A DNA stretch of 64,000 nucleotides. It comes from Acanthopleura granulata (Eukaryota; Mollusca; Polyplacophora; Chitonida; Chitonidae). The stretch lies in the NCBI GenBank assembly GCA_016165875.1, contig JABBOT010000080.1:7050759-7114758 (forward strand), in the 5' to 3' direction. Below the pieces are notes generated by a model. The model saw nothing but the letters and a program-made list of their open reading frames with translations. It had not been told where the DNA came from and made no database searches. Shown piece by piece: positions 54,401-61,402 of this stretch. The number at the start of each line of letters is the position of its first letter. Position 1 is the first letter of the stretch. The translations under genes and the position numbers were made by a program.

Positions 54401-57400
54401 TAGATCATTCTACATGCTACAAAATCACTACAGGCTATATACAATCACGCTAACCTACTTAACTATATACATTTACTTTGAAAATTACACAGATTTAGTC
54501 AGGTACAAGCAACTGGAGTGTAACAACAATATAAACTCAGCTTACAAGTGGAAAAACACGTCCGTCCCGCTTGCTGACCAACCGCCGTTTTTCGGTTTGT
54601 TTTGACTAACGGGTAGCAAATACGCAAATGTGGCACCAAAAAGTATGTAACAGAAAAAATAGGAGGACGTTAAGTTTATGCCATGGGAGAGAGGGTAATG
54701 CGGCAGTTATTTAGCAGCATCAGTCGAGGTTGGGAAGGAACTAATGCATGTAACATTTTGTAAGCGTCACAAAAAGGTATGTAACAAATATATAGGAGTA
54801 TGCTGAGTTGATGCCATGGGTCAGCGGGTAATGCGGCAGTTGTTTAGCAGCATCCCTCGAGGTTAAAAATGAACTAGTGCATGTTACTCAGAACTGTATA
54901 CTTAAATCAAAATCAGGTCTTCCCCGAGTGGTCAAATGCGCTTGTCCTTCAGTTGCTTGTACCCATAAGATGCGGGATCCAAAAGGAGCCTTGTACTCTA
55001 ATTTGGGTTGTAAGAAAATGTGAAACTCCACACGTTTTGATCTTTATGAGATTATCATTCTACAAAGTGCCACATCTAAACGAAAGGTGAAGAAAAAAAT
55101 AAGAAAATATCACCACGAAGAGTTATTTGATTTTCATCCCTTAAATTTACAGATCCCATATTTTTGATGTCGTTTTTGAGAGTCCGGAAATTTAGTCAAC
55201 TGCTAGCCAGAGAAACGCTTGTAAACTATCTAATCACACGAGAGAAAGAAACAGCGTACTTCGCTAAAGTGGATTGTGACGAAGCCAGAGTAATGGCGGT
55301 GTTGAAACGCAGGTGAGTAGGTCGCTTATAAAGCTGTGGAGAGCGTTTGGACACAGATTACGTATATTTGTTTATTTGTTTAATTATTTATTGATGTAAA
55401 TGATTTGGGATTTACGCCATACTCAAGAATATTTCACTTATACGACGGGAGCAAGCATTAACGTTGGGAGGAAAGTGGACAGAGCCTGAAGGAAACGCAC
55501 AAAACTTTCAACAAATCGTGAGCCTTGTGCTGAGTAACAATCAAATAACACAACAAATAAGCTGACAACATTATATTCTAGGTATCATTCGCTCACTTTT
55601 TATCAAGACAACCAGTTTTTCCGTTCCAGTTTCTACATCCCGCTTCCCAAGCCAGACGAACATGGACGACAAGTCATCATCATCAGGCCAGGTAAGGGTT
55701 ACACTCGCAAAAGCTTGTACTATCTCGCGATATCTGGCTTCCAGCGAATAGTCTTGTAACAGAACAGATTTTCTAGTTGGTTTTCTGCTGCCTTACCTGC
55801 GCTGAGACGGCTTATATGAAGACTCGCAGAAAATTGACAAGATGAAAGAAGAGTTTTGTGGGCAATTAGGCGTCTAGTCTTACAGAGGAAAGTCAATCTG
55901 AGTTCACAGGCGTAATGTGTATGTTATTTTCAAACGTGTGGAAACTCACTAACAAATTTGAATGCAACCGACAGCTCCGGTGGCATGGTGATTAGAGTGT
56001 CATATAACAAAGGCCATAAAAGCCTGGCGTTCATTATTGAGGGGTTAGAACAAGGAAACAGGAGTGGTCGGTCCGTTGTCTGTATAATGTGACATGGTAA
56101 GGTGTCATGTCTGGCGTCTTCGGAATGATGTTCCCTTGGCGGCAGCACTTTGGCAACATTGTACTCGGCCTGCAACATAATATATAAATATTAAAGACTC
56201 CTCATCGTGATATGACAGAAAATTGTTATGCAGGACGTAAAACCCTAAGCATACATTCATACATACGCACATACCTCCAATGATTGCAATTGTACCACAA
56301 ACAGATTCTCGTGCATGTATCTGTATGTGCTGCCAAACGCTTACGTGGTATTTGTGCGGTTTAAGCATCATTATAACACTGCGTTCCTTTCTAAACACTA
56401 TTACAACACAGACAGCTTAACTGTGTTTCTTCTTCACATCTACACAATCCTATTTGCGAGACAAATTAGCACGAACGGGAATATCTCCTCTTTTGTTGAT
56501 GAAAAGTAGTGGTGGAATCTCTTTCTGAGGTCGCTTCGTTAGCCATTCAAAATCCCGTGTTTGGCAGGGCGAGATTTTATAGATTCGCCTAATCTACCTG
56601 GTTTTGGGACCTATGTCCCATTGTGGAAAGTTTGTCAATACATTGTTAAAGGCCAGCTGTGTAGGCCTACCCCTAAAGTGGTGTCCTTCGCCCATGAAAC
56701 TGACCGCTAGCGTATACTTATTTCTTTCTATATTTATTTCATTGGTGTTTTACGCCGTACTCAAGAATATTTCATTTTTACGACTTCGGCCAGCAGAGGA
56801 AATCCCAAGACCATCCACAGGTAGCTGGTGTACCTGAGAGGAAGCCATTGTGAGATGGACTTGAACTCATAGCGATCGCATTGATGGGTGGCACATGGGT
56901 CATTACGCTGCACTAGCGCGCTAAGCTCCTCGACCACGGAGGCTCCGCTATCGTAAAAATGAAACATTGTTGTGTATGGCGTAGAACCACAATTAAATAA
57001 GTAATTAAATTATCATGATATTGACAGCCTAACTGTATACCTTATTAATTCACATTTACACAACCCTGTAAAAGTCTTTCGTTAACTCCGTTTTTAGAGG
57101 GACAACTGATTGCCTTACCATTGATCTAACAGATTAAGGCGTTCCTGATTACGGATTAAATCGTTAGATCAACGCCAAGGCAATCTGTCATCTCTGAAAT
57201 AAAAGAATTAGGGGAACATTTTTTTAGGGAGTCAGATTTTCAAGAAAGAACTCAAACTCGAATACATCCTAATTTATGAAAAATGATACATAGGTTGAAT
57301 TGGTTGCTTATGTCGCCTCCTTTGTCCTTACAAGTCAGTTAGGCACATCAGGGAAAGTGTATCACTTCATTTGTACTTACAGGTCATTTAGACACATGAG

Positions 57401-59036
57401 GAAAGGTGTATCACATCATTTGTCCTTACAGGTCAAATAGACACATCGTCGAAAGTGTATTACTTCATTTGTCCTTACAGGTCAGTTTATAGACACATCA
57501 AGAAGAGTGTATCACTTCATTTGTCCTTACAGGTCAGATAGACATATCGGGGAAAGTGTATCACTGCACTTGTCGTTACAGGTCAGTTAGGCACATCGGG
57601 GAAGTGTATGACTTCATTTATACTTACAGGTCAGTTAGACACATCGGGGAAAGTGTATCACTTCACTTGTCCTTACAGGTCAAATAGACACATCGGGGAA
57701 AGTGTATCACTGCACTTGTCGTTACAGGTCAGTTAGGCACATCGGGGAAGTGTATGACTTCATTTATACTTACAGGTCAGTTAGACACATCGGGGAAAGT
57801 GTATGACTTCATTTGTCCTTACAGGTCAAATAGACACATCGGGGAAAGTGTATCACTGCACTTGTCGTTACAGGTCAGTTAGGCACATCGGGGAAGTGTA
57901 TGACTTCATTTATACTTACAGGTCAGTTAGACACATCGGGGAAAGTGTATGACTTCATTTGTACTTACAGGTCAGGTAGACACATCGGGGAAAGTGTAGT
58001 ACTTCATTTGTACTTACAGGTCAGTTTATAGACACATCAAGGGGAGTGTATCACTTCACTTGTACTTACAGGTCAGTTTATAGACACATCAAGGGGAGTG
58101 TATCACGTCACTTGTACTTACAGGTCAGTTTATAGACACATCAAGGGGAGTGTATCACTTCACTTGTACTTACAGGTCAGTTTATAGACACATCAAGGGG
58201 AGTGTATCACTTCATTTGTCCTTACAGGTCAGTTGGACACATCAGGGAAAGTGTACAGGATCCAGGATGTGTTTAGGGCTGTGTTTGTGATCCTCGACTT
58301 CCTGCTACGAGATGAGAACGTTCAGGTGAACGGCGTTGTGATGGTGCTGGACTATACTGGCGTGACCATGAGTCACCAGAGCTTCGCCGGCGAGCACAGA
58401 GCCAAATTCCTCAAACTGTTAACGGTAGGCTTAAATATACAAATACATGTAAAAGGTTCGTCGAAGTTATGAATAATAACAAATCATAATCATAATAATA
58501 ATGATATAATTTTAATATAATTAGAAAATAATGTTGTGCATTATGCCGTAATCAGATGATTTTTTTTTCTTGGCAGCGGACAGGATTGTTTTCGTTTCTT
58601 CTTAAGAAAGGATAGTGAACATAATGTTATGTCTTGTGAAGTGTTCGGTCATTGCTGGCAGACTTTAAGTAATGTTGAAAATATAGTGAAATGTATAATA
58701 AACAGTTGTTTTATTGTTAAACTACGCCTTCCAGAGTCAGCTGCAATGTGTATATCTTTCTAACCAGGAAGCGATATCTGTATGCATAGTTTAATATACA
58801 TTTCCCTCAGAGAAGAATATTAATCATTTAAGATCCGATAGCATGGGAATTAGCGTTAACATGTGAAAATTTAAATTTAAATCTTGGTGAGTTGAATTTC
58901 TTCGAAGTGTTGCCCTCCCTGTCCCCTTCCCGCCACCCACACGCACACGTGGTATTATTACGGAGCACGTTGTAAAATCGACTCGTGCCTAGAATCAATA
59001 CATGTACACAGAAATAGGAGTGTTACTATTCTCGTG

Positions 59037-59084
<48 letters not shown>

Positions 59085-61402
59085 CCTGCTAGAAAAAATA
59101 AAACTGTTCTGATATACTTGAAATGGCCGACAGGAACGGTTAATATAATCCTTTTCATTTTTGAATACCATGGATGACGTCGTTGTGAAATCGTTAAATT
59201 TACTCTCCATTTTCAATGGGAAACTCGTAAAACTCCTTCCCGCCTTTAACAAAGGAGGTTCAAAGACTTGTGCTTCTTTGTCCTTTCATGGATTACGTCA
59301 CAATTCTAGGTGCATGTGTGCTCAGAAAACACTTTCGCAGTACACAAACACTGCAGCGTCATAGCAGAAAACGATGTGTTTCTCTACGATTTGGACCCTT
59401 TTGTGTAGCCCGTCAGAGTCTCCCATTTTATTTTCCTTCTGCAGAAAACCTATCCACTCCGCATCAAGAGCATACTGATGTACAATGTGGGGCCATTTCT
59501 GGAGATCCTCCTTGGTATTTTGAAAACTGTTTTACGGGAAAAGATGCAAAAACGTGTAAGTTTTAGTTTCTCCTGGTAGTTATATATATAACGACTGGAT
59601 CTATTTGTTTCAGCTGTGAAAATTTTACCCGCCGAATATATATCACATAATTTCTACATTTCTTAGATATCATTACTTGTCCCCTGTTTGGCTCCTTGAC
59701 TAGTAAGTTTATTTATTTATTTATTTCAATAGTGTTTTACGCTGTACTGAAGAATATTTCACTTATACGACGGCGGCCGATTTCATGGTGGGAGGGAAGC
59801 AGGCATAGCCCGGGGAAAACCCACGGCCATCCTCAGGTTGCTGGCAGACCTTCCCACGTACGGCCGGAGAGAAAGCCAGTTTGAGCTGTACTTAAACTCA
59901 CAGCGTTTACTAGTGAAAGCCGCCTGTGACGCTGGATTGAACATTTCTTGGTCTGCTCGTAAGACGTTTGCATTCTTTTCATGTAAATCTGCATTAATTT
60001 AAATGCGATGACAACACAGTATTCCACACTAGTGACGTATACTAAGTTACGATTAACAGCATTGCAGTTTTGCTAAGGCCATGGTACTAGTTGCTGTAAA
60101 TGTATTTGTTTGATTGGAATTTCACGCCGCACTCAAGAATATTTCGTTTACGCGACGGTGGCCATCATTATGGTGGGAGGAAACCGGGCAGTGCCCGGGT
60201 GAAACTCGCGACTATGTGTAATAGAAATTGTAAAGCCATGTAGTAAAAGAATAATGGGTATATTCCATATTAGGTGGTATATTCTGGTTGTTCTAAGCAA
60301 TGTAACTTTCATTTAAGAAATTTGAATAAGAATGACATGTTTCGATCTCCAACTGCTGTCGTTGACAGATAGAGACAACTCCTGACATGGTGACGATATA
60401 CTCCAAGTTAGGTCAGAGTTGTCTGCCCCTAGACTACCTGCCGGACGATTACTCGGGCGACCATAGCGGCACTTGTGACGAGATTTCAGGTACTGTAGGT
60501 TTTTACCCCATTGGTTGCTTTTATTCTTTTACGGTTTTTTACGGCATTCTCATTAATTAATTACATGATGCCAGTGCAGTATATAAAATGACCAAATAAT
60601 GTGGTGATAAATAGCCAATAATGTCATTGCGCCATTTCAATACTGAATATTTCATTATTTATTTTTTATTATTTATTATTTATTTGATTGGTATTTTGCG
60701 CCGTACTCAAGAATATTTAACTTATACAACGGCGGTCAGCATTATGGTTGGCGGAAACCGGGCGCAGCCCGAGGGAAACCCATGACCATCCGCAGGTTTC
60801 TGCCGTCCTTCCCACTGACAGCCAGAGAGGAAGCCAGCATGAGCTGAACTCACAGTGACGGCATTGGTGATAGGCTCCTGGGTCATTGTGTTGCGCTGGC
60901 ATGCTAACCGGTGATTAATAGATAAACCGTTTTCAAATATCATTTTCTAGTATATTGATGTATTTATCTTATTCTTGTTTTGATGTCAACTTCAACAATT
61001 TTTCAACTATTATTGTGGTGGTCAGTTATATGGGTGGATAGAGGAAACCAAATATACAAAGTATGCATATTGGTAAAAGACAGGTGGCCTCCAATTAAAC
61101 AGCGGAAGCGACACCGGCTTATATCGTCACCAAGGTTCCACAAGCAATTAAGCGAGGCACACCCTTTTTGTTGCACTCAATCTTCTTAGGGTGTAATTAT
61201 AATTCGTCGTTTAAAACCTGCTTTTTTTTTACAAAACCGTTTTCCTTTTCTTTCAGAGAATCTCATCAAAGATCTGAGAAATGCTGAAGTAAAGGACTGG
61301 ATAGCCGAGTTGTCCTCTGGTAAATACAACGTCGATTCCAAGACCATGCCACCGAGAGAGGATCTGTTCCGGGAGGCGTTCCGAAAACTAAACGTGGATT
61401 GA
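48257..61402 (+). CDS. CRAL-TRIO domain protein, alpha-tocopherol-transfer-protein-like, 7 coding exons
   Basis: Coding exons are 48257-48413, 55153-55312, 55582-55691, 58228-58424, 59445-59555, 60369-60489 and 61257-61402. All introns are GT-AG and all phases match, giving 1002 nt and 333 aa. The N-terminal helical CRAL-TRIO_N part spans about residues 20-105, including D-P-I-F-L-M-S-F-L-R-V-R-K-F. The lipid-binding CRAL-TRIO domain spans about 115-280, with VVMVLDYTGVT and YPLRIKSI. The family carries a hydrophobic ligand (tocopherol, retinal or phosphoinositide) in the cytosol and exchanges it at membranes. The basic pairs around LRIK and EKMQKR sit where TTPA has its phosphoinositide-binding lysines and arginines. 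The ligand here is unknown. Intron 1 holds an antisense LINE; intron 3 holds a splice-junction tandem array. ttattccag directly before the ATG may be an acceptor for a 5'UTR exon. AATAAA lies at 61442-61447. Confidence 0.92.
48832..48898 (-). mobile_element. Tail of mollusc-type repeat (family 4)
   Basis: (TGAA)n then gattatggcttaacgccata and ttggcaatgtttcagtccta. This is the antisense form of the tail at 38245-38295. Located in intron 1 of the CRAL-TRIO gene. Confidence 0.55.
49121..49134. repeat. Target-site duplication, LINE 3' side
   Basis: cggtttgtttcgac. It pairs with cggtttgttttgac at 54593-54606. The single difference is a CpG-to-TpG change, as expected from cytosine deamination after insertion. 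Confidence 0.7.
49135..49160 (-). repeat. (TATG)n tail of the LINE
   Basis: Five to six tetranucleotide units lie at the 3' end of the element, directly against the target-site duplication. Elements of the I superfamily commonly end in short tandem repeats rather than poly(A). Confidence 0.7.
49288..53025 (-). pseudogene. LINE ORF2: endonuclease, reverse transcriptase, RNase H (broken)
   Basis: The apurinic-type endonuclease starts MDYTRN..., with KNIQSLF and CLQETFLKPKY, and continues to about 52290 across a frameshift. The reverse transcriptase (about 51883-50650) has PGEDGV, WKTATVIPIAKSG, YRPIALTS, QSGFGNNRSTSDHL, motif A AVFLDIEKAYD and motif B GTPQGSVISPTLFNIA. Motif C (F/YxDD) is deleted: the sequence jumps from ...NDLPSILHPMIPC to AAKWHIQQALDAI in another frame. 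RNase H (about 50110-49770) keeps TDASK, SAELYAIL, FTDSLSPLQS and WVPGHSGVPGNERAD, the D-E-D-D set. The C-terminal CDVCQAEETIHH motif has lost its last cysteine (F instead). At least five frame changes are needed to read it through. Confidence 0.9.
53023..53027 (-). promoter_or_regulatory. Overlapping stop-start TAATG between LINE ORF1 and ORF2
   Basis: The ORF1 stop TAA (53027-53025) and the ORF2 ATG (53025-53023) share one base. UAAUG is the arrangement shown to support termination-reinitiation coupling in the SART1 non-LTR retrotransposon. Confidence 0.65.
53025..54215 (-). pseudogene. LINE ORF1: nucleic-acid-binding protein with CCHC knuckles (broken)
   Basis: The start is MEDDDNDMDFTEV at 54215. 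A TGA follows at codon 14, probably a CpG-decayed CGA arginine codon, after which PSGRDKRVRNRHDSEEGEGG continues in the same frame. A VVIYGVGESVT segment precedes two zinc knuckles, C-F-R-C-x4-H-x4-C and C-S-R-C-x3-H-x4-C, and part of a third (CVNCGGS). After frame changes, the C-terminal part (PKPRSQTNSIGVQTDND...) runs to the stop at 53027-53025. Such ORF1 proteins bind element RNA. Confidence 0.82.
54557..54563 (-). promoter_or_regulatory. DPE-like element of the LINE internal promoter
   Basis: GGACGTG on the minus strand begins about 28-30 nt after the 5' end inferred from the target-site duplication. That is the position and consensus of the downstream promoter element in TATA-less arthropod LINE promoters. 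Confidence 0.5.
54593..54606. repeat. Target-site duplication, LINE 5' side
   Basis: cggtttgttttgac, matching 49121-49134 at 13 of 14 positions. It fixes the 5' end of the LINE at about 54592. Confidence 0.7.
54634..54888. repeat. Tandem duplication, two ~133-bp units
   Basis: The blocks ggtaatgcggcagttgttta, gcagcatc and tcgaggtt, as well as aaggtatgtaaca and gatgccatggg, occur in the same order in 54634-54753 and 54768-54888. Located in CRAL-TRIO intron 1, just beyond the LINE. Confidence 0.85.
55153..55312 (+). CDS. CRAL-TRIO gene exon 2
   Basis: Residues 53-105. FLMSFLRVRKF is the hallmark FLRARKF helix of the CRAL-TRIO_N domain. Acceptor TTTACAG, donor GCAG|GTGAGT. Confidence 0.92.
55370..55500 (-). 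mobile_element. SINE family 1, 3' part, in CRAL-TRIO intron 2
   Basis: Degraded tail, gggatttacgccatactcaa, gaatatttcacttatacgac, and a middle that stops after ggaaacgcac. Confidence 0.78.
55582..55691 (+). CDS. CRAL-TRIO gene exon 3
   Basis: Residues 107-142. SSFYIPLPKPDEHGRQVIIIRPG is the first beta-strand of the lipid-binding domain. Acceptor TTCTAG, donor CCAG|GTAAGG. Confidence 0.92.
56036..56275 (+). mobile_element. tRNA-derived SINE (family 2), 5'-truncated, in CRAL-TRIO intron 3
   Basis: ggggttagaacaaggaaaca, ggtgtcatgtctggcgtctt, cagcactttggcaacattgt, actcctcatcgtgatatgac, attgttatgcaggacgtaaa and a CATA-type tail. Same block order as 46180-46414. Confidence 0.82.
56731..56946 (-). 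mobile_element. SINE family 1 in CRAL-TRIO intron 3
   Basis: Tail cattggtgttttacgccgta, a deletion in the middle, ttgaactcatagcgatcgca and head end cctcgaccacggaggctcc. Directly followed by a degraded sense tail at 56949-57009. Confidence 0.82.
56949..57009 (+). mobile_element. SINE family 1, degraded tail
   Basis: aaaaatgaaacattgttgtg, tatggcgtagaaccacaatt and an AAAT/AATT tail, in inverted orientation relative to the preceding copy. Confidence 0.5.
57108..57187. mobile_element. Hairpin element related to the 17.75-kb foldback
   Basis: The left arm tgattgccttaccattgatc...(57108-57136) and right arm (57157-57187) are reverse complements over about 30 bp with a few mismatches. They flank a loop containing aaggcgttcctgattacgga. 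That centre resembles tagtccgttcctgataacga in the element at 17753-17948, suggesting one family. Confidence 0.5.
57320..58227 (+). repeat. Tandem array of the exon-4 splice junction in CRAL-TRIO intron 3
   Basis: Eighteen copies of a 48-52-bp unit, most containing cttacaggtcagttagacac, atcggggaaagtgt and a pyrimidine-rich stretch, run without gap into the real exon-4 acceptor as the nineteenth. AG positions are at 57381, 57430, 57479, 57531, 57580, 57628, 57677, 57726, 57774, 57823, 57872, 57920, 57969, 58018, 58070, 58122, 58174 and finally 58226. The first copy (near 57330) has lost the AG|GT join (acaagtcag). Period is about 49 in the left two-thirds. The last copies are 52 bp, with a gtcagtttatagacac variant. 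Confidence 0.95.
58228..58424 (+). CDS. CRAL-TRIO gene exon 4
   Basis: Residues 144-208, starting QLDTSGKVYRIQDVF and including VVMVLDYTGVTMSHQS, the core of the lipid pocket. Its acceptor, CCTTACAG|GTCAGTT, and its first ~30 nt are the unit repeated upstream in intron 3. Donor ACG|GTAGGC. Confidence 0.93.
59037..59083. repeat. (TA)n microsatellite in CRAL-TRIO intron 4
   Basis: About 23 uninterrupted TA units. Confidence 0.95.
59445..59555 (+). CDS. CRAL-TRIO gene exon 5
   Basis: Residues 209-245. YPLRIKSILMYNVGPFLEIL is the YP-x-R-x-K motif segment shared with TTPA and CRALBP, followed by LREKMQKR. Phase 0 at both ends. Donor CGT|GTAAGT. Confidence 0.92.
59707..59910 (-). mobile_element. 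SINE family 1 in CRAL-TRIO intron 5
   Basis: Well-preserved tail and middle (gaatatttcacttatacgac, ttgctggcagaccttcccac, gtacggccggaga) to the B-box-side remnant ttaaactcacagcg. The A-box end is lost. Confidence 0.85.
60103..60212 (-). mobile_element. SINE family 1, 3' part, in CRAL-TRIO intron 5
   Basis: gattggaatttcacgccgca, ctcaagaatatttcgtttac, tatggtgggaggaaaccggg, ending at gaaactcgcgac. Confidence 0.8.
60369..60489 (+). CDS. CRAL-TRIO gene exon 6
   Basis: Residues 246-285. LPLDYLPDDYSGDHSGT corresponds to the family's L-P-x-E-Y-G-G motif after the lipid gate. Acceptor TTGACAG, donor TCAG|GTACTG. Confidence 0.9.
60654..60912 (-). mobile_element. SINE family 1, near full length, in CRAL-TRIO intron 6
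   Basis: (TTTA/ATTT)n tail, gattggtattttgcgccgta, full middle, a small deletion before the B-box, and head side gggtcattgtgttgcgctgg. Confidence 0.88.
61257..61402 (+). CDS. CRAL-TRIO gene exon 7 and stop
   Basis: Residues 287-333, ending FREAFRKLNVD then TGA. Charged helical C-terminus containing KDWIAELSSGKYNVD, in line with the family's post-domain tail. Acceptor TCTTTCAG. Confidence 0.9.

Follow-up and report, generated by a model that had tools for sequence, protein, structure and literature searches.

A tandem array of the exon 4 acceptor in a CRAL-TRIO gene of the chiton Acanthopleura granulata

The end of one intron of a CRAL-TRIO gene of Acanthopleura granulata consists of repeated copies of its own 3' splice site, each followed by the first nucleotides of the exon behind it. 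This arrangement raises the questions of how a coding boundary came to be repeated in front of its own exon, which of the acceptors is used in splicing, and whether the array stands alone. The locus was analyzed in a window of 64,000 nucleotides, which is the whole stretch of DNA studied and to which all coordinates refer unless another contig or locus is named.

Structure of the array and its host gene

A preliminary description had reported a splice junction amplified as an 18-copy tandem array before its own exon, and this was confirmed by Tandem Repeats Finder and by cutting the units at the junction. The program returned one array at 57321-58255 with a unit of 49, 18.8 copies and a score of 1140, and the array was additionally readable with periods of 97 and 146 bp. 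When cut at the junction, the 18 upstream units were 48 nt (n = 3), 49 nt (n = 10) or 52 nt (n = 5) long. The unit joins ~21 nt of the intron end to 28 nt of the exon start (-21/+28 of the exon 4 acceptor); the proposed composition of 3' splice site plus exon start was thus correct, with an exon part of 28 nt instead of ~30 nt. As had been described, the array runs into the real exon as its final copy, but this authentic boundary, at 58228 on the edge of the array, is a nineteenth copy in addition to the 18 upstream units. The sequence of exon 4 beyond its first 28 nt was absent from the array. The units were 81-92% identical to the real acceptor (-21/+28), and TTACAG/GTCA (the slash marks the junction) was found in 17 of the 18 upstream copies. 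The first of them, at 57334, has TTACAAGTCA in its place and is without AG before the junction, which leaves 17 copies with AG, in agreement with the initial estimate of about 17 decoy acceptors. The features of the locus are as follows.

55153..55312, + strand: upstream coding exon of the CRAL-TRIO gene
55630..55691, + strand: exon 3, its start placed by the orthologue and its end by ccag/gtaagg
55692..58227, + strand: intron 3 (2.5 kb), with the array at its 3' end
57313..58206 (junction register 57334-58227), + strand: 18 head-to-tail units of 48-52 bp (Tandem Repeats Finder, unit alignment)
57533..57970, + strand: units 5-7, 8-10 and 11-13, which form blocks of three units nearly identical to one another (146-bp period)
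58020..58227, + strand: second homogenized block, with four 52-bp units (15-18) that are 92-100% alike over their aligned stretch
58207..58255, + strand: nineteenth copy, in which the real acceptor, with TTACAG at 58222-58227, is followed by the 28 nt that open exon 4
58228..58424, + strand: exon 4, CRAL-TRIO domain, phase-1 start, donor GTAGGC
59445..61402, + strand: exons 5-7 with introns (~59445-59555, 60369-60489 and 61257-61402), ending in TGA

Exons 4-7 matched Pfam CRAL_TRIO with an E-value of 4.4e-15. The best protein relative came from the chiton Liolophura sinensis; it is alpha-tocopherol transfer protein-like and has 79% identity over the joined exons. Where the focal gene reads RPG/QLDTSGKVYRIQD, this orthologue (a database protein) reads RPGQLDISGKVFKIQD, with no insert at the junction, and residues similar to the exon 4 start recur in further molluscan proteins. 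The view that a coding boundary had been amplified in register is supported by these comparisons, the exon start being conserved coding sequence.

Other repeats were seen in the window. A 43-bp array with CAGGTCATTGG at the unit start lies at 943-1269, with a 66-codon open frame reaching its 5' edge. A 133-bp near-duplication (1.9 copies) at 54637-54884 is found shortly before the upstream coding exon, and a (TA)23 run at 59038-59083 in the intron after exon 4. A SINE-like dispersed sequence (TATTTCACTTATACGACGG...GGTGGGAGGAAACCGGGCA) recurs in introns, at ~59720-59920 and ~60680-60900 of the window and at ~1080-1290 of another locus (L002). The contig of the focal gene, C83, carries two clusters of CRAL-TRIO paralogues, at 29.73-29.76 Mb and 39.41-39.50 Mb.

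Age of the exon start and growth of the array

The intron end was compared among nine paralogous loci. In eight of them AG directly precedes the same codon, three of these (L035, L036 and L040) having AG/GT, and L044 is the single locus without such an intron end. Tandem Repeats Finder detected no tandem array adjoining the acceptor in the eight loci within 1.5 kb upstream; across all nine, upstream arrays were present in L040 and L044 only, at ~1 kb or more from the acceptor. With the exon start conserved in the Liolophura sinensis orthologue and an intron end at the same codon in eight of the nine paralogous loci, the exon start and the intron position are older than the array, which therefore appears to have grown from its own acceptor. 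Separately, L040 contains a 22-bp array of TCACTTACAGGTATGTCAGTTC units at 150-523. It belongs to another intron of that paralogue, one that follows an earlier exon, and lies near a donor that it does not span.

The relations among the copies were read from the unit alignment. Units 6, 9 and 12 are identical in their aligned part, as are units 7, 10 and 13, so that a three-unit block occurs three times. The inner copies are homogenized and the edge is divergent, unit 1 being at most 88% identical to any other unit, and the two most distal units match the real exon copy better than any other. Such relations would result if unequal exchange or slippage acted on an array whose last copy was under constraint.

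The array is very probably a junction-spanning minisatellite of the kind named 'mirage' in amphioxus, derived from its own acceptor and normally spliced at the exon-proximal site. It would have begun with the tandem duplication of a ~49-bp segment that took in ~21 nt of the intron end and 28 nt of exon 4, and would have been enlarged by unequal exchange or slippage, including the tripling of the three-unit block. Selection on the coding sequence would have kept the real exon as the last copy, and the remaining copies would drift as intron. The exon-proximal acceptor is most likely the one used, as exon definition would pair it with the exon 4 donor, and splicing to a decoy would be expected to end in a premature stop. 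On the best reading the array is near-neutral and is normally skipped by splicing.

The amphioxus mirages were described for the globin genes BflGb6 and BflGb9 and for Adh3 (PMC3087553), and another paper adds PGBD5 and cites TnC (PMC3902484). According to these accounts they are, like the focal array, tandem duplications of an intron-exon boundary (PMC3087553, PMC3902484). BflGb6 in particular is described as repeating the 3' end of the intron and the 5' part of the exon, and RT-PCR of this gene suggested regular splicing (PMC3087553). Homogenized inner units and divergent edge units are likewise shared, as far as the amphioxus accounts describe them. The two differ in host, a mollusc and a cephalochordate, and in unit size: the focal units have 48-52 bp, whereas BflGb6 reportedly has units of 150-160 bp and Adh3 units of 10-72 bp. 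Searches of listed open-licence papers turned up no mirage-type array from a mollusc, and as far as these searches show the focal array extends the known kind to a new phylum.

Other systems resemble the array in part. Tandem AG/GT copies also arise where an intron is gained through the tandem duplication of an AGGT (proto-splice) segment, as outlined in PMC3087553, and a case from potato is reportedly the subject of PMC4974935. In contrast to such gains, the focal intron is old and was merely lengthened by the array; an intron gained by AGGT duplication was rejected on the AG found at the same codon in eight of the nine paralogous loci. For human internal tandem repeats at exon-intron boundaries, it is reported that minisatellite expansion can change introns (PMC2812944). 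These repeats are described as lying in recent segmental duplications with altered gene structure, whereas the focal coding sequence is unchanged. The earthworm metallothionein gene is reported to have intronic minisatellites, and junction units are not described in the accessible text of that paper (PMC12783039).

Predicted products of the decoys and alternative readings

The consequences of decoy use were predicted by translation from every junction position onward through exon 4. All 18 positions, among them all 17 true (AG) decoys, ran into a stop after 5-55 codons, and the added length was a multiple of three at 6 of the 18 positions and at 5 of the 17 AG decoys. Since units that shift the frame make premature stops expected, these stops are no sign of design. 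In the 13 distinct units, the junction columns had a mean conservation of 0.99 compared with 0.87, ranking third of 45 windows. This is suggestive only, and may hint at a constraint on the decoys, which would count against a near-neutral array.

The same observations bear on the suggestion of the preliminary description that the array could tune expression or generate isoforms, and on a regulatory role in which the spliceosome would often take a decoy, the products would carry stops, and the copy number would set the level of functional message. Such a role would account for the conserved junction columns and for the retention of TTACAG and the near-identical 20 nt upstream of it in 17 decoys that all lead to stops. 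We nevertheless consider it improbable: stops are what frame-shifting units would yield in any case, amphioxus mirages are reported to leave regular splicing undisturbed (as described in PMC3087553 and PMC3902484), and eight paralogous loci do without an array beside the acceptor. The orthologous protein of Liolophura sinensis, too, crosses the junction with no insert.

It is less probable still, and in our view very unlikely, that the units act as resplicing modules, each offering an acceptor and a donor-like CAG/GTCAG through which a decoy junction would be spliced again and so corrected. Recursive-splicing ratchet points are reported to consist of an acceptor directly juxtaposed to a donor (PMC8605326), and TTACAG/GTCAGT in most focal units has the same juxtaposition of acceptor and donor-like sequence; four other arrays (L002, L050, L056 and L057) likewise have CAG/GTCAG at the donor on their edge. 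The juxtaposition, however, follows simply from an exon that begins with GTCAGT. The intron is merely 2.5 kb long with units of 48-52 nt, and in contrast to ratchet points the focal case is a tandem array in a short intron, known from sequence.

A dispersed or mobile, introner-like repeat that landed at the junction is hardly credible. It was suggested by a 46-bp array on contig C48 (L002, 1505-2040), which starts at an exon donor, the exon being IPO13/TNPO3-like, and has TGTATCACTTCATT and ACAGGTCAG in common with the focal unit; the Pfam match of this exon is weak, with an E-value of 0.022 on its own and of 2e-4 when two exons are joined. An anchored shuffle test gave p-values of 0.00115 for the unit consensus and 0.00065 for the exon-like unit, before allowing for the choice of the best of many arrays. 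A mobile element was rejected as the main reading, because the likeness was not significant after that choice and because each array holds exon sequence of its own gene. The core pattern of the unit occurred at two loci genome-wide, the focal one and L002, and not at many unrelated sites as in introner-like elements.

An assembly artefact, with the array or its copy number absent from the animal, is equally implausible: misassembly of tandem repeats is frequent, it reportedly affected one amphioxus mirage (PMC3087553) and another array of this genome (L010) adjoins a run of N, but the 0.9 kb array, known from one haploid assembly, has 13 distinct units among the 18 aligned, and the published Acanthopleura granulata assembly is described as built with Nanopore reads at ~37x (PMC7850002).

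Similar arrays elsewhere in the genome

Junction arrays are also present in other conserved genes of this genome. Twelve arrays were hand-picked, not randomly sampled, from a listing of tandem CAGGTCAG, and 3 of the 12 begin at exon donors. Two of these adjoin a DUF255 exon and a coatomer beta exon, whose Pfam matches (2.4e-27 and 3.6e-16) extend to the last residue. The third lies at a frame that had no database match and that we take to be VPS39-like. Presumptive names for frames beside arrays are ST13, HSPA12, VPS39, ankyrin and p47.

A further 29 arrays were taken in listing order for a repeating donor-like motif, 14 of them distinct arrays of the triple CAGGTNAG (to C1:11.76 Mb) and 15 further ones of the triple CAGGTAAG (C1 and C2). 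Thirteen of the 29 (45%, interval 26-64%) begin at an exon donor and have 9-42 nt of the exon end in the unit, although in L063, L067 and L102 just 8-10 exon nt match, partly guaranteed by the chosen motif, and the alignment of L112 is one base out of register. Database homology was obtained for 6 of the 13 (PLRG1, C2H2 zinc fingers, NOC3-like CBF, cation efflux, VPS13_N and GH31), and the other seven (L060, L061, L063, L070, L106, L108 and L112) were assigned by reading frame and splice signals only. Of the first 14 arrays, 12 were searched against Pfam, the two left out being L010, which adjoins N, and L047, where the frame consists of the repeat; of the remaining 15, 9 were searched. Database searches of L061, L070, L057 and L106 gave no match. 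Three arrays were left uncounted: L114 adjoins a Sushi exon with a unit free of exon sequence, and L115 and L116 are close to an exon end without touching it.

For comparison, 14 control arrays of the reversed motif were tested by Pfam and not read by eye, and their 20 flanking frames gave no Pfam match. The difference between 13 of 29 and 0 of 14 (p 0.003) comes from this uneven comparison, and with the database-supported cases alone it was 6 of 29 against 0 of 14 (p 0.15). Among 14 arrays with the 3' flank read, one acceptor-type case was found (L097). It adjoins a dipeptidase (CNDP2-like) exon, whose homology (E 7.5e-13 in a PDB sequence search) sets in with the first complete codon behind the last AG; Pfam gave no match for this locus.

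The origin of the array in a coding boundary was upheld. The array is not an isolated oddity, given the other arrays in the genome and the structure already named 'mirage' in amphioxus. The published mirages, as far as the open-licence papers present them, belong to a few genes of lancelets, and the same anatomy in several unrelated conserved genes of a mollusc suggests that it is no peculiarity of cephalochordates. Junction arrays offer a natural test of splice-site choice, since a kilobase holds many near-identical sites and presumably a single one is used, and they provide countable loci for intron growth by tandem duplication and for the tolerance of decoy sites. RNA and long-read data of the same animal already exist, in a deposit named in PMC7850002, which gives BioProject PRJNA578131 for the transcriptome reads.

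The motifs were counted genome-wide against their reversed forms. The triple CAGGTNAG had 1993 matches compared with 348 for the reversed motif (single sites 87,342 and 44,647), the triple CAGGTAAG had 516 compared with 45 (single sites 26,722 and 13,339), and for the acceptor-type motif TTTNCAG 3441 triples were found compared with 2345. Counted as distinct arrays, the triple CAGGTNAG gave 14 against 6 among those listed (C1 up to 11.8 Mb; p 0.46), and the triple CAGGTAAG on C1 and C2 gave 19 against 2 (p 0.013) or 3 (p 0.035), the reversed count being uncertain. The abundance of donors by itself makes the donor-like motif frequent: by excess over the control, about half of its sites are donors. 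With 45% of arrays at a junction, donors were not shown to be hotter than other motif sites, and the counts do not settle whether splice junctions are mutation hot spots. A rough extrapolation, from 14 arrays per 100 rows at one contig end, gives ~280 arrays for the triple CAGGTNAG, with ~45% at junctions. We regard it as a tentative and rather doubtful extension that junctions systematically give rise to minisatellites in the chiton, in about a hundred or more genes, that mirages would then be a general bilaterian route for intron growth and splice-site testing, and that AG/GT modules may even be respliced so as to correct the use of decoys.

L063/L064 (C1:3440047-3445225) is a donor-type array of ~5 kb that follows a frame which is presumably ankyrin-like and which had no Pfam match.
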